Positions 2,191 through 30,404 of a stretch of DNA of 64,000 nucleotides are shown one piece after another (position 1 is the stretch's first letter; every line of letters begins with the position of its first letter). The notes under the pieces were generated by a model. That model searched no databases. It worked only from the letters and a program-made list of their open reading frames with translations, and had not been told where the DNA came from. The stretch spans positions 114,983,127-115,047,126 of the forward strand of contig OZ020594.1 of assembly GCA_963971535.1 (NCBI GenBank). The letters are read 5' to 3'. Origin of the DNA: Notolepis coatsorum. Taxonomy: Eukaryota > Chordata > Actinopteri > Aulopiformes > Paralepididae. A program made the translations under genes and the position numbers.

Positions 2191-2565
2191 GTGAATCTTA
2201 CCAACAGCTGCCTGGCCTCCCGGTCGCGTCCATTCTTTCCCCAATACATTTCCAGTTTTGCGTTCGCCTTTTGCAATCTGATTGGCCACTGACTCTACGC
2301 CCAAACAGCGCGTTACGCTAATAACATATTGTTTTCATCTCACTATATTAACGTGATTCCATCAACACAACATATCTCTCTATATTAACGTGATTCCATC
2401 AACACAACATAAATGTTCAAAACACGACAAGACAGTTTGCATCACTTCCCACGGTTCTCGGCACTTATTCTACCAGTAGTGCGGTAGTTGTTGCCACGGT
2501 ATTGGGTCTTTGGGTGAATACTTCATTGGCGGGGAAGAAGAACACTGATAGCGGTGTGTGGACCG

Positions 2566-2830
2566 TCCCACGAGCCCCAGACCACCGTCCCTCGAGCCCC
2601 AGGCCACCGTCCCTCGAGCCCCAGACCACCGTCCCTCGAGCCCCAGGCCACCGTCCCTCGAGCCCCAGGCCACCGTCCCTCGAGCCCCAGGCCACCGTCC
2701 CGCGAGCCTCCAGACCACCGTCCCGCGAGACCCAGACCACCGTCCCGCGGCCCCAGGCCACCACCCTGCGAGCCCCAGACCACCGTCCTGCGAGGCCCAG
2801 CACGCCACCGCCCTGCGAGCCTTGTTTCCT
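2566..2830. repeat. 22-bp GC-rich minisatellite
   Basis: About twelve head-to-tail copies of a unit close to CGAGCCCCAGGCCACCGTCC plus CT. Related units appear in inverted orientation at 2865-2925 and 3352-3430, so the array lies in both arms of the foldback that contains it. Long proline-arginine-rich frames on both strands are produced by the repeat and are not genes. Confidence 0.9.
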
Positions 2831-2969
2831 GTGCGCCTAAAATTCTACCTGGTCTCGTCCCGTGGGGCTCGCAGGGCGGTGGCCTGGGGCCGCGGGACGG
2901 TGGTCTGGGGATCGCGGGACGGTCCACACACCGCTATCAGTGTTCTTCTTCCCCGCCAATGAAGTATTC

Positions 2970-3320
2970 ATCTCTGATCTAGGTCTCCTCTCCATCCCTC
3001 GCACCAGGTTACGGACTTTTGGGGACAGAGCCTTCAGCGTGGCGTCCCCTACCCTCTGGAACTCTCTCCCCCCCGAAATCCGCAACGCCCCAACCCTGGA
3101 CACCTTCAAATCCGCTCTAAAAACACACCTCTTCACCAAGGCTTTCCCCATCAGTTAGTTTTAGATTAAATTAGGTCCATTATCCCCTACTTTCCCTCAT
3201 CCCCTCTTCCCCCTCCCCCCCTACTTTCCTTGCCCTATTTTTTGTCCTGATTGTAAAGCGACCTTGGGTTCTATGAAAGGCGCTATATAAATTTGATTTA
3301 TTATTATTATTATTATTGAA
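2970..3320 (+). pseudogene. LINE RT C-terminal fragment with 3' tail
   Basis: A short frame ending at 3158 encodes the LWNSLPPEIR and FKSALKTHLF motifs typical of the C-terminus of L2-type LINE reverse transcriptases. It is followed by a 3' UTR with GCGCTATATAAAT and a run of ATT repeats (about 3298-3318), the usual end of L2/Maui-type fish LINEs. Only this extreme 3' part exists, so the insertion is 5'-truncated and dead. It sits within the middle of the foldback element at 2226-3715. Confidence 0.8.
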
Positions 3321-3724
3321 CCGGTAGAATAGGTCTAGAATAGGTCTGGGTCTCGCGGGACGGTGGTCTGGGGCTCGCGGGACAGTGGTCTGGGGCTGTG
3401 GGACGGTGGTCTGGGGCTGTGGGACGGTCCACACACCGCTATCAGTGTTCTTCTTCCCCGCCAATGAAGTATTCACCCAAAGACCCAATACCGTGGCAAC
3501 AACTACCGCACTACTGGTAGAATAAGTGCTGAGAACCGTGGGAAGTGATGCAAACTGTCTTGTCGTGTTTTGAACATTTATGTTGTGTTGATGGAATCAC
3601 GTTAATATAGAGAGATGAAAACAATACGTTATTAGCATAACGCTACGTTATTAGCGTAACGCGCTGTTTGGGCATAGAGTCAGTGGCCAATCGGATCGCA
3701 GAAGGGGAACGCGTTATCCCGGTC

Positions 3725-3978
3725 GCGTTATTCTTTTCCGTAGCCGCATTTCTCGGAGACGCTCTCTGATTGGCCACTGACATGTTTGCCCAATCGCGTG
3801 ACGAGCTGTGTCTTTGCCCATTTCCGCGTCGAACAGCCTGCAAACTACCTGCCGTTCTATCGCCAATCTCTAACCTTAACCAACTTCGAAAGAGTGCCTA
3901 AGCTTAACCAGTGTAGAAACAGGCGTCGGCCAATCAGAGAGCGTCTCCGAGAAATGCGGTTACGGAAAAAAATAACGC
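3725..3978. mobile_element. Mutator-like element 2 (MITE size)
   Basis: A 254-bp element with terminal inverted repeats of about 50 bp, beginning GCGTTATTCTTTTCCGTA and ending with its reverse complement with minor changes. Flanking 9-mers are ATCCCGGTC (3716-3724) and CTCCCGGTC (3979-3987). A CTGATTGGCC box lies 41 bp from both ends. The element abuts its neighbours with only the 9-mer in between. It has no coding capacity and would need a transposase supplied in trans. Confidence 0.75.
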
Positions 3979-4084
3979 CTCCCGGTCGCGTGTATGCCTT
4001 CTACAACGCTGTTCCAGTTCCGCGTTGGCGTTTTGCGCTCTGATTGGCCGAGCGCGCGCATGAGCCGCGACAAGCCCCTATTAC

Positions 4085-4440
4085 GGCCTACGCCGTGCTG
4101 CGATAAGGCTTTCGCCAGCCGGGAGAGTAGGCGCCGCGAGCGGCATCGCTGCGCTCATCAACGCCCCTCCGTGCTCCGGCTTTCAACACCGGGGAGAGTA
4201 TTATGGGGCTTATGCCGCGAAGCAGTAACACAACAGTAACATAGTTAAGTACGACTGACAGATGCATTGCAACTATGTGTTCACTGTTGTGTTGTACTGC
4301 TTCTCGGCATAAGCCCCATAATAAGACCGTCTCTGGCTTCGTCCAGCGGACACCATGGCGAGCTCAGCGATGTCGCTCGCGGCAGCATACTCTCCCCGCT
4401 GGCGAAAGCCTTATCGCAGCACGGAGGGTCGTCGACCCGC
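4085..4440. repeat. palindromic core of Mutator-like element 3
   Basis: Two arms (about 4090-4245 and 4270-4430) read as imperfect reverse complements around a short spacer. They share ATTATGGGGCTTATGCC and GGCTTTCGCCAGC-type segments. A related hairpin (GGGGCTTATG, AGCAGTAACACAACA) lies in the other Mutator-like element at 28478-28580, which links the two as one family. Confidence 0.7.
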
Positions 4441-4914
4441 AACTCAGCCGCGAAGGCGGCGATGAAGCCCGAGTCGCGCGATTTTTTATTGGTTTGTCAT
4501 GACAAACCAATTACATAATCCAACATATGTGTAAAGAAACAACATATTCCAGTTAACGGTATATTTTTGTAATGATTGCTTACGGTATAAATTAGGTTAA
4601 CTGGAGCTTAGTATTGCTGCCTGGCTGAGGGCCGCGTCGCGGCTCACGCCACGAGCACACTGCTAACGAATGAATTTCACGCGCGGCTCCCTCGCGGGAT
4701 CGCGCGCCTGGTAAGGCACACTGGACCTACGACTTGAGCGCGCGGAAGCGCACCGAGGAAGGCACATTTACATTGGGACAGCTGTAAATGCCTAGTCTAT
4801 GCAAAGTCAGTCATTTAAATGAATGAATGATGATCAGTGTGACTGTACTCGAAAGAATAAATGATGATCAGTGTGACTGTACTCAAAAGAGCAGCGTGGA
4901 GCCCCAGCAGCATC

Positions 4915-5200
4915 AAGAGCTCTCTCTCTCTCCCTCTCTCTCTCCCCCCCTCTCTCTCTCTCCCTCTCTCTCCCCCCCTCTCTCTCTCTCTCTCTCTCTC
5001 GCTCTCTCTCTCTCGCTCTCTCTCTATCTCTCCCCCCCTCTCCCCCCCCCCCTCTCTCTCTGTCTCTGTCGGGACAGACAGCCAGACAGGCAACCAGATA
5101 TAGACAGATAGACAAACAAACAAACAAACAAACAGACAGACAGACAGGCAACCAGATATGACAGATATACAAACAAACAGACAGACAGGGCGGGGTACTA
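4915..5200. repeat. CT microsatellite followed by CAAA/CAGA microsatellite
   Basis: About 4918-5070 is almost pure (CT)n with C-rich interruptions; 5074-5190 is a run of CAGA, GATA and CAAA tetranucleotides. The serine/leucine and arginine/glutamate frames here are products of the repeat. Confidence 0.95.
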
Positions 5201-5495
5201 ACTATAGTAATATTGTTTATTTGCATTGGGAAAGATAGACACATTAGCTGGCTGAACAACATCTATTGAAAGATAGAGAGAAAACGAGAGAGAAAGAGAG
5301 AAAGAAAGAGCTGTACAGTATTGTATACCCATTCTGCAATCTGTTAATAAAATATACACTGATATAAGCCTACTGGTTGCTGTTCAATCATAATAATAAT
5401 AATCATAATTACCATAATTAGCTGTCAGGAAACAAATAAAACGTTTGTCATTATAGGTGACAAGGTGGATTGATTTAATGACTGCTATATCCTGC

Positions 5496-5633
<138 letters not shown>

Positions 5634-6805
5634 GCAACATTGTAATAGTTATAGGTATAAACAAACATACAGACAGGGGGGGCGCGTTTATTTGCAGATA
5701 CAGACACAGCTGGTTGAACAACATCTATATCTGTGGTAATAATGCAGATATTCAATTGTATTTCTGTGACAATGCGCGTGGCGCGCAGCCTCAAATAGGA
5801 TCAAGGCGAAAAAATTGCTTGCCGCTCGGGAGCCGCTCGCGAGGCGCGCTCCCGCTCGCAGCCAGTGTGCCTACTATCGTCCGTTAACATGGGAGCGGAA
5901 GTGAAGAGACTCAGCAGCAGCCATCACCCCAGTCATCACACACATAATAAACCTCTCCATAAAACAGGGACACGTCCCCAAGGACTTCAAAATTGCGAGA
6001 GTAACACCCCTGCACAAAAAGGGCAGCAAATTAGACCCGGGCAACTACCGCCCTGTTTCTATCCTTACATCCATCTCGAAAGTCATGGAAAAAATAGTAT
6101 ACGAACAGATCGAAGAGTACCTCGCGGAAAAAAATCTAATCTACGAATTCCAATCTGGCTTCAGAACATCCCACTCCACTGACACATGCCTTCTCTACTT
6201 GAACGACCACATCAAACAAGAGGTGGACGCGGGCAAATACTGAGGCATGGTCATGCTGGACCTACAAAAGGCCTTCGACACTGTCAATCACACCATTCTG
6301 ATTGACAAGCTAAAAGCAATTGGTTTTGATAGTTTATCAGTGAGCTGGATACAATCCTACCTGGAGGGGAGGGAACAGATGGTGGAGGTAAACGGTACCC
6401 TACCCCCCCCCCCCTCACAGTGAACTGTGGTGTTCCACAAGGAAGCATACTAGGACCGCTACTATTCCTAATTTATGCAAATGACATGTCGTCAGCTTGT
6501 GACTGCAACTTGTTCCTGTTTGCGGACGACTCAGCCCTGCTGGTCTCTGAGAAGAACAAGTTACAGGTTGAAAAAGCCCTCAGCTCAGAATTAGGCAAAA
6601 TCTGCATATGGCTCGCCGACAACAAACTATCATTACACATGGGCAAAACAGAGTCCATTCTCTTCGGTTCAAATAACAAACTCAGCAAGACCGACGGCTT
6701 CTCGGTTACAGTGGGTGACAATATTGTCACAAGGAAAGATGAAATTACCTACCTGGGCTCCATCCTAGAGGCTAATCTTTCCTGTGACAAAATGGCATCC
6801 AATGT

Positions 6806-8123
6806 TGTTGTGAAGGGCCAGATTAAACTGAGAATCTACCTTTATTGTTTGATATACTTTGTATATTATTTATATATATACACGGAATATCCCTTTACCT
6901 GCGTTCAAACCAGAGTAATATTCGCTCTCCTATTGGACAGCGCCCCCAGGCGCCAGCGCGCAAGCCCCCAACGGCAGGTTCAAAGACAAGTTCAGGCATG
7001 TCAGAACATGCCCGGAGTCAGCGTATTGATACCAGACAAAGACTGCGGTTTGGGACTAGATATTCACTTAAGTATAAATAGAGCGCAAGGTGCGCACAGC
7101 AGTAGTTCAGTTCAGTTCAGTTCAATTCGAGAACGTTCAGTACCTTACCCACCTTCACCACGAGTCAACGTGCAGTGAAGTGAGCAACCTTGCGTCTAAC
7201 AGAGCATTGAGAACCACGTGCGAATAGTTTAGTAAAATAACGTCGAGTTCGACCTAATCTAATGTGAAGTAAATAGTCGTTCATTTATTGTATATCGTGC
7301 GGCCACAGTTCGGTCGTGTGTAGCATTACCCAGCGGTTCGTTGTGTCTTTAGCTAGTGTACTTAGCCAGGGTGTGTGGCCTAAATACGTCGCCCACACCC
7401 GAGGAGTCCTAGGCGGAGAACCGTTGGACATGTACACAGGAGAATCGGCGTCGACGATTGCAGAACCATTACTGGTTGGATTATATTGATTTGGAACGTG
7501 GTACCCGGAGAAGAGCATCGTTGATTTCCACTGTCGTTTGGGATTCAACCTCGTGAGGATTACAACTCGGGCCGGCCTCGTGGACGGAGGCTGGCTAGCT
7601 GTCATCAATGCTATCTAGCATTTGGATTACAATTATTACTTTGCTGCTGATCAAGGGAGTTTACAAGGACCGACTCCTGTACCTGGAGTCTCTTTATTCC
7701 TCATTGAATCAGACGGAGTACCCGAACATTCCTCTACCCTCCAGGCCTTACACCCCCGGAGGGAACCCATTGTCTCCAGGCGGTACCAGTGTTGCCCTAT
7801 CTAGTTGCTACTATACGACAGGTGGTGTCAACTTAGACCCATCGTAGGATTCCTGCTATTCTTAGTGACTCATGCTATTGACTGACTTTACGTATATTCT
7901 TCGCCATACAAGCGCAACCCTAATTCTCATTCTGTAACCTAATGTTGCCTAATAATAATAAATTACCCTCAAATACTATTTCTTTGTCAATGCCGTGTTC
8001 TTGTGGGTGTTCACCATCTATATTTGATGTACTGTCTGGCCAGTAATTAAAGTACATAACTAGCAGTGGTTTAATCTATCACAATCTTTAATACAGTCAG
8101 GGTTTTGTAACCCCTCAGTTACA
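6806..8123 (+). mobile_element. BEL/Pao-type solo LTR
   Basis: A 1318-bp unit beginning TGTTGTGAAGG and ending CCCCTCAGTTACA, flanked by a perfect 5-bp duplication AATGT (6801-6805 and 8124-8128). It interrupts LINE-alpha copy A at a site that is continuous in other copies. It aligns by eye with the LTRs of the BEL element at 52752-61945, sharing CACGGAATATCCCTTTA, TCCTATTGGACAGCGCCCCC and the CTCAGTTACA end, but is clearly diverged. The internal region is absent, as after LTR-LTR recombination. A candidate TATA box lies at 7073-7080. Confidence 0.9.
7073..7080 (+). promoter_or_regulatory. TATA box of the solo LTR
   Basis: TATAAATA occurs about 270 bp into the LTR, followed by GAGCGCAAGG and an initiator-like TTCAGTTCAG repeat region. 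The intact BEL LTRs have a similar box in the corresponding part. Activity is inferred only from position. Confidence 0.5.
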
Positions 8124-8789
8124 AATGTAATAAAAAAAGTCAACCAACGAACTCGATTCTTGTACCGGATCTCCTCTCTGGTAAACAAGAATACCCTGAA
8201 GACTCTGGCAGGAGCACTCATTCAAGGGTACTACGACTATGCTTGCACCTCATGGTACCAAAGCACCTCAAAGGCACTAAAAAACAAATTACAAACATCT
8301 CAAAACAAGCTAGTCAGACTACTGCTTGACCTGACTCCTAGAACCCACCTCACCCCTGCCCACTTTGACAACCTAGGATGGCTTAGAGTAGATGACAGAG
8401 TACAGCAACTTGCAATGGGCCATGGTCTACAAGATACAATACGCGACCAAGGTACCCATGTACATGTCAAAATACTTCCCAAAGGTCAGTGAATACCACG
8501 ATCACAACACCAGAGGGAGCTCCACAAATCATGTAAAACCCAGATTCGGCTCAAACAAGGGACTAAACACGTTTTGCAATTATGCCACATCAATGTGGAA
8601 CGCCCTACCTAAAGCTGTAAAGGAATGTGAATCACTACCCACTTTCAAAAACACTCTCAAAAAACACCTACGTGAGACTGCAATTCGAAACTGGCCCCTA
8701 CAAATGTCCTAACCTAGTTGTACAGTAAATGACCAAGTAAGGCTTTGTCAGTATTCCAATGTACAGTGTAAAATGTGTGTGTCCCCCCT

Positions 8790-8880
8790 ACCCAACCCCC
8801 CCCCCCCCCCCCCCCCCACCTCCAATGTACAGCCCCCACCCACCCAACCCCACCACACCCACCCAACCTCCTCCAATGTA
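8790..8880. repeat. poly-C and C-rich low-complexity tract
   Basis: A run of more than 20 C residues near 8797-8818 sits in the 3' UTR of LINE-alpha copy A, followed by CCCACC repeats. LINE-alpha copy B at 13885-13975 has a comparable C-rich tract at the same place, so it is a family feature that expands. The proline-rich frames here are not genes. Confidence 0.9.
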
Positions 8881-9183
8881 CAGTTTCTACGTCAAATGTA
8901 TATACACTCTTTTTCTGGACACTTTTGTATCACAAACAGTACTGTATTTGCAAATCTGATATGTCATAAATGTATAGATGTAGCAGTACTGTCTATCTGT
9001 ATGTCATGTATGTCATATATGTTATGATGAATTGAAAATAGGGGACCCTGATGTAAACAAGACGAAAGTCTTTCTCTGGTCTGCATCCCCTTAACAATTG
9101 TATGTATTGAGCTGTACTGTACCCATTCTGCAATCTGTTAATAAACTTTTCAATCAATCAATCAAAGAGGCAGCCGCCCGTCC

Positions 9184-11026
9184 GCGTGAATATTAAAGGC
9201 AACCAACTTGTGTTCGGCTTTTCTCTGATTGGCCGCGCCCCCACGCGCAGGCAAGCGCACGTCCCAAATGAAATCCAAGGAGCAAGCGAGCGGCAGCGCG
9301 GCAACCAACTTGTGTACTTGTTGGGCTGCTGTTCCAACCAACTTGTGTTCAGCTGCGGTAGCAGTGGACATACAGTACACCTCCTATCTATGTTGGGATT
9401 ATGTTTGGTCATGACAAAACAATAAAAATCGCTACTGTTGTTAGTAATGCTGCCACCACCCACTTCAATGACAGAGCTCTCATATTTGCGAATGCATAAA
9501 CTATATCTTAAATTATGGCGATGTGTCTAATATGGCTGTCGCGAAGTCATTGATAAGCGACAGCCATATTAGACACATAGCCATAATTTAAGATATAGTT
9601 TATGCATTCGCAAAATATGAGAGCGCGCCGCTGTCATTGAAGGGCTTCCTACAACAGAGCACCGCCGCTGCTGCTGCTGAAGCTGGATCAAGCCGCCGGC
9701 GGCGCACGGACGCCGGGGAAAAACCACCGCGTCGCCCCGCTGGCGTTTCAGGCTCAGCAGCCTCCACCGGCGAAATAACATATAACGTTACAGTTCCACA
9801 CTGATGTACAGTGAGTGTCTAATATGCTGTCGCGAAGTCATGCCTCTCCCTCTGAAAGCCCATCCACGCTGTGTATCATAGACTACCAGATTCACTCGTG
9901 TATAAACAAAGCCCATACAGTTATGAAATGCGCTGAACTAGAAAGCGTAACGTTATTATGTTTCGCGTTCCATTGATTAACGCCATTACCTGCTGTGCTG
10001 TAGGAAGCAGAGGTACAGTAAGTTACAGTAGGTGTAGGTTACATGTTTAATCAAAGCCCATACAATTTTTCATAATATTTCAAATATCATAATGATGTGT
10101 TTTCTATATTATATCCACAATCATTCATCTAAAAAATTGTATGGGCTTTGATTAAACATGTAACCTACACCTACTGTAACTTACTGTACCTCTGCTTCCT
10201 ACAGCACAGCAGGTAATGACGTTAATCAATGGAACGCGAAACATAACGCTACGCTTTCTAGTTCAGCGCATTTCATAACTGTATGGGCTTTGTTTATACA
10301 CGAGTGAATCTGGTAGTCTATGATACACAGCGTGGATGGGCTTTCAGAGGGAGAGGCTACGACTTCGCGACAGCCATATTAGACACTCACTGTACATCAG
10401 TGTGGAACTGTAACGTTATATGTTATTTCGCCGGTGGAGGCTGCTGAGCCTGAAGCGCCAGCGGGGCGACGCGGTGGTTTTTCCCCGGCGTCCGTGCGCC
10501 GCCGGCGGCTTGATCCAGCTTCAGCAGCAGCAGCGGCGGTGCTCTGTTGTAGGAAGCCCTTCAATGACAGCGGCGCGCTCTCATATTTTGCGAATGCATA
10601 AACTATATCTTAAATTATGGCTATGTGTCTAATATGGCTGTCAATGACTTATCAATGACTTCGCGACAGCCATATTAGACACATCGCCATAATTTAAGAT
10701 ATAGTTTATGCATTCGCAAATATGAGAGCTCTGTCATTGAAGTGGGTGGTGGCAGCATTACTAACAGTAGCGATTTTTATTGTTTTGTCATGACCAAACA
10801 TAATCCCAACATAGATAGGAGGTGTACTGTATGTCAAATGTCGGTCATATGGTGGAAGAGTTTAGTACAGTCACACAACAGAACACCGCTGGTTCGACCA
10901 GCGTTCTGCCGCGTCTCTCTTGCCGCAAGGGCGTGTGCTAGTGGATTGATTGATTGGCCGTGTGGCCAATCAGAGAAACGCTGAACGAAAAGCTGAACAC
11001 AAGTTGGTTGCCTTTAATATTCACGC
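9184..11026. mobile_element. Mutator-like palindromic foldback element 4
   Basis: The element begins GCGTGAATATTAAAGGCAAC and ends with the reverse complement, flanked by a perfect 9-bp duplication CGCCCGTCC (9175-9183 and 11027-11035). Its arms of roughly 880 bp are near-identical inverted copies around a spacer centred near 10105. The same 70-codon frame appears on the minus strand at 9569-9781 and the plus strand at 10420-10632 without an amino-acid change. Each arm also contains a smaller hairpin built on GACAGCCATATTAGACAC. The outermost part of the left arm lacks about 12 bp present in the right. No transposase is encoded. Confidence 0.85.
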
Positions 11027-11157
11027 CGCCCGTCCTTGTTCATTCGTCAGCAGTGAGCCCGTGGCGTCATGCGCATGCGCGCGCTCGGCCAATCAGAGCG
11101 CAAAACGGCAACGCGGAACTGGAACAGCGTTGTAGAAGGCATACACGCCTCCCGGTC

Positions 11158-16926: not shown

Positions 16927-17160
16927 GCAGAGTAGGGGGGACCGGGAGCATCGTCCCCCGGTAGAACATTTTAATGATTTTAATACGCAAATGAAGCTTT
17001 TAGGAGTATTTTGAAACTAGAATTACAGAGAAGGAGTAGATACACTAGTCTTGATATCACATATTATTGGTGGGGACCATTCATATTTTTTCAAATTTGG
17101 GGGGGACATGCCCCTCCCCCCGGGATATGCAGCCATGGGGATGGTGGATTTTATCATATG
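16927..17160. repeat. short repeat shared with 12165-12345
   Basis: Contains the same ATACGCAAATGAAGCTTTTA segment as 12165-12345, plus GGGGGGACATGCCCCTCCCC, a G/C-rich inverted repeat. It begins directly after the LINE-alpha tail. A similar GGGGGATGCCATCCCCCC motif occurs at 30540-30565. Family unknown. Confidence 0.45.
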
Positions 17161-27690: not shown

Positions 27691-28203
27691 TTTGATTTGA
27701 TTGAAGTTTATTTCAAGTATGCAACACAACAAACCAACATCAAGTACAGATATAGCCTTAAAGGCCAACTTGCAGGTTAAACCCTACTCTGCAATTATGG
27801 GTAGTTTACATCATTGGTATCTAATTTAATAATTTTTTTCCATTTGACGCCGGAAATGCCACTCAGAAAGGGTTAAAAAGGTCCACGCACGAATAACATG
27901 CACGGAGCAAATCTAAAAGCGTATCAGACGCTTGCACGGCCGTGACGTCACTTCAGGCAACTTATGCCTTATGCCCGTCCGGGTCGCCTGTAGCTGTTCC
28001 GCAACCGTTGCTATTTCCGGGGTAGGCCTGATTGGCCCCGACAGGCACGTGACCCGCCGCGGCCACGGCCCGCGGCAGCCTCAGGACGCGGCAACGAGGC
28101 TGCTGTGGTTCACAGGCGCTTTCCGCCTTCAACGCCGCCCGCAGCATAGGAAGGAGTTCACGGCGCCTTTCACATCGCAGTCATCAGTCATAATAATCGC
28201 GCC

Positions 28204-28470
28204 GCAGTCGGCAGTCATGCAATCATTTATCATTTAACATTTGAAAGGCATACATTGTTGTATGAAATAAAATAGTATAGAGACATATGTACAGCGTCGC
28301 TCGGCAGTCATGCAATCATTTATCATTTAACATTTGAAAGGCATACATTGTTGTATGAAATAAAATAGTATAGAGACATATGTACAGCGTCGCGCCGCAG
28401 TCGGCAGTCATGCAATCATTTATCATTTAACATTTGAAAGGCATACATTGTTGTATGAAATAAAATAGCA
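28204..28470. repeat. three tandem copies of a 93-100 bp unit
   Basis: GGCAGTCATGCAATCATTTA recurs at 28210, 28303 and 28403, with near-identical sequence between, ending AGACATATGTACAGCGTCGC in the first two. Part of the unit also appears inverted at 28835-28870, so it forms the inner stem of the surrounding foldback. Confidence 0.92.
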
Positions 28471-28762
28471 GGGAGAATATGCTCACGCGAGCGGCATCGC
28501 TGAGCTCTGGTGACGGTCTTATTGGGGCTTATGTCGAGAACAGCAGTAACACAACATTGCAACTGTTGTGTTACTGCTTTCTCACTCGAGTGAGGAGGAG
28601 CGGAACTTCGGAAGACCGCTGGTTCTCAAACATACAGCGGTGTGCTCTTCAGAATGTGCCGGGAGAAACGTTTACTGTACCCCGCAGACATAATAAGCAT
28701 ATAAGCAGTGCTTACTAACGTTATTAGTTACGTTATTTCTGACCGAATTAGTCATTCATTTG

Positions 28763-28838
28763 TCTAGCACAGTCTCTAACAGTGTAACAGTAAGAAGCAT
28801 TTTGGATAAAAGTATTCTGTACTTCTGTATGACAACAA
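28763..28838 (+). repeat. LINE-beta 3'-UTR fragment
   Basis: TGTCTAGCACAGTCTCT, AACAGTAAGAAGCATTTTGG and AGTATTCTGTACTTCTGTAT match the last 80 bp of the LINE-beta copies, without the CTTGAA tail. It lies inside Mutator-like element 5. Confidence 0.8.
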
Positions 28839-30404
28839 TGTATGCCTTTCAAATGTTAAATGATTAAATGATACACAGCGCAATCTACGCTCTCGCCTCT
28901 CATCCTGCTTTCGCCAACGGCAGCGATGTGAAAGGCGAAGCGAACTCCAGCAGTAGCGCGCTTGCCGCTGGGGCTGCCGCGGGGCGTGGCCGCGGCGGGT
29001 CACGTGCCTGTCGGGGCCAATCAGGCCTACCCCGGAAATAGCAACGGTTGCGGAACAGCTACAGGCGTCCGGGTCATAGTACTACTGGATATATGGCGCT
29101 GGCTAACGTTAGCATTATGTCTACTGTCGTGAACCATTTTAGATCGGGGCATGTAGAGGAGTTTGGGGAACGAGTAAAATCATGTGCAGGTCCTCTTCTC
29201 AGACCTGTGGGGCAAAGCACTGCACACGCATCATGCAAGCTACACGTCGCTGCATGTTGATCAAAACTACTATTGTGCTAACAACATCCCGCGACGTCTA
29301 GCTTGTTAGCCGGCATGAATGCCCGATTTAAAATGGTTCTCTCCTCTTTGTATACCTTTGTCCTCACAAGTATTCTGCCAGGGAACTTATGGACACGACA
29401 ATAGTAGTAGTTATAAGGTGTTTGAGCTTGTAACGTTAGTTAGCTCATAGCTATCGTGGTAGCCAGTTTCGACGGGATGTTGTTAGCACAATAGCTACCA
29501 AGCTAAGCTACGTTAGCTTCTAACGTTGTATACACAATATGTACAACGACACAATGATTTACATTATTACAAATATGGTAACGTGGTTGTGGCTTTTACA
29601 AATAGTGGTTAGCTTTAGAGATGGATGGCTATGATCACGGAGCAATAGTTTTTAGGTGAAACAGATACATTTTCATTCATCACTCCTCGGCTAGTAGTAG
29701 CAAGGCTCTCTGCCTGCCACTAGCTGTGTGACTCTCAGAGCCCCTCGCTGCCCTGCACCTGACGTGACATCAGCATTAAGATGACACACGCACGTTATTG
29801 ATCCATGGATTAAAATATGCATGTGTGTGGAGCTTGTGGTTTGGTCGACAAAATGTTTGATAAAAACGCTAAAACTGGGTCAATTTCGATTTTTTTCCCC
29901 TCTTCATGAAAGTCAGCGTTTGGCCTAGGCACATTGTTTATTGAACAAAAATACAACCTGCAAGTTGGCCTTTAAGCCGTTCAAATAATAAATGTATACA
30001 TAAATAAATAGTTACAATATATAATCTAATAATCTAAATCTAATCTAATATATAATCTAAAAAAACGAAAGGCTAAAATGCTAAATATATAATCTAAGAA
30101 TCCAACAATCTAAATCTAATATATAATATAAAAATGCTAAATGCATGAGTCTTTTGTCTTTAATGTTAGCTTGCAAACTCAAATACTGTCTTGGTAAGCC
30201 TCATAATGAATTGTTTGGGAAAAAAAGGAAAAACATCGTGATGTGTATCGTGTATCGCCGAAAGGTCAGAAAATATCGTGATATCATATTTAGGCCATAT
30301 CGCCCAGCCCTCTGCACTAGTATCTCATCCATGCAATGTCCTTTGTGGATAGCTCGCAAAGACGGAGCAGATACCACACGCTAAACTCATGCAGTTAAGG
30401 ATGC

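Follow-up and report, generated by a model that had tools for sequence, protein, structure and literature searches.

A chain of three inverted-repeat elements at one 9-bp target site in the genome of Notolepis coatsorum: probable repeated insertion into a preferred palindrome

The locus and its elements

The DNA considered here comes from Notolepis coatsorum (GCA_963971535.1, OZ020594.1, forward strand, 114,983,127-115,047,126) and is referred to below as the window, that is, the whole stretch of 64,000 nt that was analysed, which sits in contig C29 of a host genome of 3.42 Gb (G000) that was also searched. Close to its start, three elements with terminal inverted repeats (TIRs), E1, E2 and E3, follow one another with 9-mers at their junctions and outer ends, and two relatives, E4 and E5, lie within E3 and further downstream (Table 1). 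An earlier note on this DNA had described three elements standing end to end, and this chain is real: E2 and E3 are TIR elements, whereas E1 proved to be damaged and E3 to be a composite that reaches its length solely because a long interspersed nuclear element (LINE) copy and E4 are inserted within it. The four 9-mers of that description stand at exactly the positions given; three of them, at 2217, 3979 and 11149, read CTCCCGGTC, and the one at 3716 is ATCCCGGTC, a decayed junction.

Table 1. Elements, 9-mers and related sites (positions in the window, unless a contig is named)
Feature	Position	Strand	Remarks
9-mer CTCCCGGTC	2217..2225	+	Left flank of E1; read directly
E1	2226..3715	.	Non-autonomous TIR element; 22-bp tandem repeats in arms; right TIR lacks outer 34 bp
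9-mer ATCCCGGTC	3716..3724	+	Decayed E1-E2 junction; GTT just before it, absent from left TIR
E2	3725..3978	.	254-bp element; TIR 96% over 51 bp
9-mer CTCCCGGTC	3979..3987	+	E2-E3 junction
E3	3988..11148	.	7161-bp composite; TIR 97% over 78 bp; contains LINE copy and E4
LINE copy	5905..9164	+	Within E3; reverse transcriptase domain in two open reading frames; approximate boundaries
E4	9184..11026	.	Relative nested in E3; TIR start GCGTGAATATTAAAGG; target-site duplication CGCCCGTCC at 9175-9183 and 11027-11035
9-mer CTCCCGGTC	11149..11157	+	Right flank of E3
E5	27986..29066	.	Fifth relative; TIR start GCCTGTAGCTGTTCCG; target-site duplication GTCCGGGTC at 27977-27985 and 29067-29075
ACGC/ACCC-type pairs, E4-type	G000 C1:49338877, C1:56665806, C1:28558073, C4:1906515		
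ACGC/ACCC-type pair, E3-type	G000 C21:54292746		

The ends of E3 match at 20/20 terminal TIR bases and its flanking 9-mers are identical, while those of E2 match at 18/20, with one mismatch between its two 9-mers. The right TIR of E1 has no counterpart for the outermost part of the left one and ends in AACGC-GTTA-TCCCGGTC, so the E1-E2 junction is read as decayed. The sequence CGCGTTAT ahead of the 9-mer at this junction is repeated where E2 begins, and may be the trace of a templated repair join. The arms of E1 also have a foldback-like build, with their tandem repeats at 2562-2821 and 3343-3428, and E4 is mostly a near-perfect palindrome (9367-10835, 95% over 1485 aligned positions).

E4 and E5 were detected by a generic scan of the window for 9-bp repeats plus TIRs, and all nine window copies of CTGATTGGCC lie inside the TIRs of E1-E5. 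The window holds five copies of TCCCGGTC against 0.87 expected, a number reached by one of 100 shuffles; the fifth copy (16940-16947, minus strand) adjoins no such element. The three independent target-site duplications (TSDs) of the window resemble one another with a chance probability of 0.0011 against all window 9-mers and of 0.021 against GC-rich 9-mers, and the likeness taken alone is moderate by the latter measure. The hAT-like elements of this window provide an internal contrast, since their TSDs are 8 bp long and vary in sequence. A Rfam scan of the window gave zero matches, a Pfam scan of 10 of its open reading frames found reverse transcriptase domains in two only and no transposase, and the 274-kb neighbourhood contained no additional intact element with matching 9-bp TSDs.

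A palindromic target shared by two TIR types

The TIR core CTCTGATTGGCC occurs 54,791 times in the genome, against 24 for its control. Ends of the E3 type, searched as a 20-mer with at most one mismatch and one restricted flank base, number 1368 (control 0), and in 100 listed ends the flanks are of 87 distinct sequences and the 9-mers of 77. Among these, 58 of the 77 9-mers match GTCCNGGAC at five or more of eight places (background 2.1%), and CCNGG stands in the TSD register of 41 of the 87 flanks, compared with 0-2 at six other registers. The flank consensus, CT-GTCCNGGAC-AG, is palindromic and strongest at CCNGG, with weak T/C and A/G flanks. Ends of the E4 type (exact 20-mer, same flank restriction) number 3282 (control 0), and among the listed ends, with seven all-C rows and repeats dropped, 39 of 67 distinct 9-mers match the same motif at five or more places; moreover, 16 perfect 9-bp TSDs were found among 25 E4 pairs. 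The earlier note had asked for such a target motif from flanking 9-mers across the genome, and one palindrome emerges for two TIR types.

A mixed sample points the same way. Twenty arm-paired loci were examined, a subset of the pairs present in the first 100 of the 54,791 core sites, and 16 of them have a 9-bp TSD with at most one mismatch, one shows a palindrome artefact only and three have no TSD. Nine of these 16 TSDs match the motif at five or more places (background 2.0%), and the longest open frame across the 20 elements is 166 amino acids. An E1-like copy at C29:115142841, damaged at its right end, is preceded by GGGCAGGAA, which is off the motif. Since the flanking 9-mer differs from copy to copy across the genome, it lies outside the termini and is not part of the elements themselves.

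The TSD 9-mers of two TIR types share the palindrome, and therefore CTCCCGGTC is an ordinary good target. A special liking for it, as first supposed, is not supported: it shows no genome-wide enrichment, with 8522+8277 copies where the reversed control has 13601+13460, and every other junction has a 9-mer of its own; among eight excised CTCCCGGTC copies, none has ATTGGCC or GGCCAAT of the TIR core within about 1.5 kb.

TIR-9-mer-TIR junctions elsewhere in the genome

Junctions were sought as ACGC placed 3-15 bp ahead of a TIR start of the E2, E3 or E4 type, leaving the spacing (n) free, and small pieces were then read. The 15 matches for E3 starts comprise four places at n=9, seven at n=10 (four distinct), two at n=5 and one each at n=12 and n=15. 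The 49 matches for E2 starts are distributed from n=5 to n=15 as 6, 5, 1, 4, 14, 8, 1, 1, 3, 3 and 3, and among 100 listed of the 378 for E4 starts, 52 fall at n=5, 19 at n=9, eight at n=10 and at most five at every other spacing. At n=9, a clear TIR lies beyond the 9-mer in 3/3 E3 pieces (L042, L044, L050), 3/10 E4 pieces (L088, L090, L092, with L095 irregular) and 6/13 E2 pieces (L099, L100, L103, L104, L108, L110), compared with 0/8 E3, 1/10 E4 and 3/5 E2 pieces at other spacings. Thus, 9 bp is the dominant distance, accompanied by some 10-bp cases.

In total, 13 clear junctions exist outside the locus, with 13 different 9-mers and varied partners. One of them, an E4-9-E4 junction at C4:158484782, is listed from both sides, and at C1:10344306 (L042) the same 9-mer recurs at the far end of the second element. 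L042 has a twin, L043, in which ACGT takes the place of ACGC, whereas L054, with ACGT at n=9, is not a junction. Two further pieces (L106, L107) show another TIR-like end, GCGTGTA.CTTAAT, 9 bp from E2-type ends, with no CTGATTGGCC core in view.

A second place in the genome that reads CACGCCTCCCGGTCACATTG is found at C29:116390804, 1.4 Mb from the window, and it shares about 80 bp of the right flank, apart from a single difference noted by eye. The element there differs from E3, since it has the inward TIR GCGTGTATGCTTTTCCCAACGC and carries CCTGATTGGCC, but it abuts the same CTCCCGGTC; the 9-mer has therefore served another element where the flank occurs a second time. Together with the 13 junctions, this bears out the proposal of the earlier note that new elements land on the TSDs of earlier ones. 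A genome search for the empty site CTGGCCTCCCGGTCACATTG returned no exact match and five places at two mismatches (control 1).

Sequence changes in the TSD beside TIRs

TSD copies that start with ACGC beside a TIR, facing GCGT, have a partner copy that starts with ACCC (four cases) or AACC (one case) in 5/5 informative pairs. Among 100 listed E4 ends, four start with ACGC, where column frequencies predict roughly 0.1-0.3%, and a C1 relative of the C4:1906515 copy retains ACCC. A hairpin at the junction may have served as template for the difference, which brings the TSD copy closer to the TIR tip in reverse complement.

Origin of the chain

The chain was probably built by repeated cut-and-paste insertion into a preferred palindromic site that every duplication preserves, as has been described for Dada transposons. 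TIR elements with direct TSDs insert through a staggered transposase cut. E1, E2 and E3 would all belong, as non-autonomous members, to a single large TIR group, moved by a putative shared transposase that would cut with a 9-bp stagger and prefer GTCCNGGAC, so that the target would be copied at every insertion and both copies would remain good targets. As each TSD copy would retain the motif, it could be targeted anew, and chains would grow. A later element landing exactly on a TSD copy would leave a 9-mer between two TIRs, and at least two such events would have produced the three-element chain; from the observed 9-mers, TIRs, target motif and junctions elsewhere we infer the successive insertions, their order and the common transposase.

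The strength of the target preference can be set against the number of elements. Position matrices built from E3 targets and applied to E4 targets, or vice versa, place the used sites 232- and 158-fold above a background taken from a 274-kb local sample. With 27,400 to 50,000 elements, a number that presupposes a pair of exact cores in every element and takes no account of diverged copies, 2.9-5.2 E3 junctions are forecast and four are seen (exact ACGC), 6.8-12.5 E4 junctions are forecast, and the forecast for the whole genome is 43-143 pairs overall. Target preference and copy number account for the pair junctions to within about 1- to 4-fold. Since these two quantities forecast the pairs, the unusual targeting behaviour considered in the earlier note can be dispensed with for them.

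Several observations weigh against repeated insertion as a complete account. The E4 junctions extrapolate to about 22-29 (19 of 100 listed at n=9, with 3-4/10 clear), which is about 2-4 times the forecast, and the genome-wide forecast for third insertions at the same 9-mer is just 0.2-1.2. The triple in the window is a lucky or hot site, and its rarity, together with the different element in the second flank copy, hints that the site is hot or that some further mechanism acts. Moreover, the spacing is 10 bp in some cases: among the E2 pieces read at n=10, 3/5 have a TIR beyond, and one E4 piece (L084) faces an E5-like end at that distance; these may be 10-bp TSDs or matches one base off. Two 365-bp elements, flanked by AGGAGTCTG and CAGACTCCT, do not fit the motif and are probably a single insertion duplicated. 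Finally, at most partner loci the reading covers the junction and not the far ends.

The E4 excess, the rare triple and the 10-bp neighbours would suit tethered targeting, in which the transposase on a resident TIR draws incoming elements to just outside it and stacks them beyond sequence expectation. This is unlikely, as the E3 junctions fit their forecast unaided, the forecast is low because it counts only copies with an exact 12-mer core, and the junction 9-mers are still target-like. A broader proposal, that the machinery favours sites beside a resident TIR, either by tethering or through a hot site renewed by each TSD, and so builds chains beyond sequence expectation, and that after insertion ACCC beside a TIR is often rewritten to ACGC, which would mark hairpin-templated repair, is fairly unlikely. 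Composite transposition, where a pair formed once is moved or copied as a unit and the 9-mer inherited, would account for the twin junctions at C1:10344306 and C1:10457725 (L042 and L043), 113 kb apart with the same 9-mer and partner. It is quite improbable for the chain, given the diversity of the junctions elsewhere, the listing of the E2-CTCCCGGTC-E3 junction at the window locus only, with no second copy, and the inner-junction 9-mer at the outer ends of the locus, as stepwise insertion predicts. A strictly site-specific element with CTCCCGGTC as its sole target could claim the three identical 9-mers of the four at the locus and the different element abutting the same 9-mer in the second flank copy, but it is refuted by the widely varied TSDs, in addition to the lack of enrichment and of nearby cores described above, and deserves practically no credence.

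Superfamily assignment and transposase candidates

The 9-bp TSDs of E2-E5 and of the 16/20 arm-paired loci lie within the 8-11 bp of Mutator-like elements (MULEs) and outside the 7-8 bp of the P superfamily. As far as sequence features can tell, TSD length and long TIRs would fit MULEs, whereas the motif recalls that of the P element, GTCCGGAC. The MULE transposase domain PF10551 has 14 matches in the genome, and the two loci read (L055, L056) have no such TIR pair; the P-type domain PF21787 has 57, of which one lies in an 808-amino-acid locus without such TIRs (L058) and another has no element around it (L057). Since none of these candidates could be tied to the TIRs studied, the "Mutator-like" label rests on the length of the TSD. 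Close to the window, three equal-scoring MULE-domain matches (C29:115458907, 115648746 and 115834827) are spaced by about 190 kb. P-like transposase frames of about 800 amino acids, possibly young copies, occur at several places, including L058 (G000 C1:125617200-125623200), with TIRs that differ from those studied. Membership among the Dada transposons was rejected on account of the long TIRs, the 9-bp TSD and the absence of Rfam matches in the window, and a TIR-pattern scan of viral contigs yielded 12 contigs that were judged to be chance from the collection alone, not aligned.

Significance and comparison with known systems

These results suggest that the chain may be a rare but recurring result of palindromic target preference. 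In one animal genome, with genome-wide counts, a motif that persists through duplication allows unrelated copies to accumulate at a single 9-bp site, and the product of motif and copy number offers a simple forecast for testing claims of tethered or self-adjacent insertion. Moreover, a very abundant group is described, which comprises about 27,000 elements or more on the assumption of two cores each, and the ACCC/ACGC pattern is a possible signature of junction repair. A literature search by listings found no paper on this TIR family, which is weak evidence of absence. The double P insertion of singed-weak was not confirmed, as a search for it returned no papers.

Muta1, an animal Mutator-like element, has 8-9 bp TSDs, long TIRs, subterminal tandem repeats comparable to those of E1 and many non-autonomous derivatives (PMC5225508), but it is described there as having little or no target sequence preference, unlike the strong motif found here, and no transposase was linked to the present group. 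MuTAnT of Medicago is a MULE family that shares the 9-bp TSD and a target preference, although it targets TA microsatellites (PMC4486113). Plant MULEs with tandem TIRs form TIR arrays, as here; however, their inner TIRs have no recognisable TSD and nested insertion is excluded (PMC3310237), whereas a 9-mer stands between the TIRs of the present chain. Galileo elements also have long TIRs, some with tandem repeats, and the TSD is 8 bp in P and mostly 7 bp in Galileo, compared with 9 bp in this group (PMC3276498, PMC4168063, PMC7776569). The palindromic motif of the Drosophila P element, GTCCGGAC, extends past its TSD, and 178 of 1,226 natural P insertions lie at the positions of artificial ones, an exact reuse of sites (PMC3276498). 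In Dada transposons, tandem Dada-U1A/U1B copies have the TSD GCGAAT alone between them through target reuse (PMC3706591). Dada elements make TSDs of 6-7 bp, lack TIRs and insert into small nuclear RNA and transfer RNA genes, in contrast to the 9-bp TSD, long TIRs and loose palindrome described here, but both systems leave tandem copies parted solely by a TSD, with one target used again (PMC3706591).

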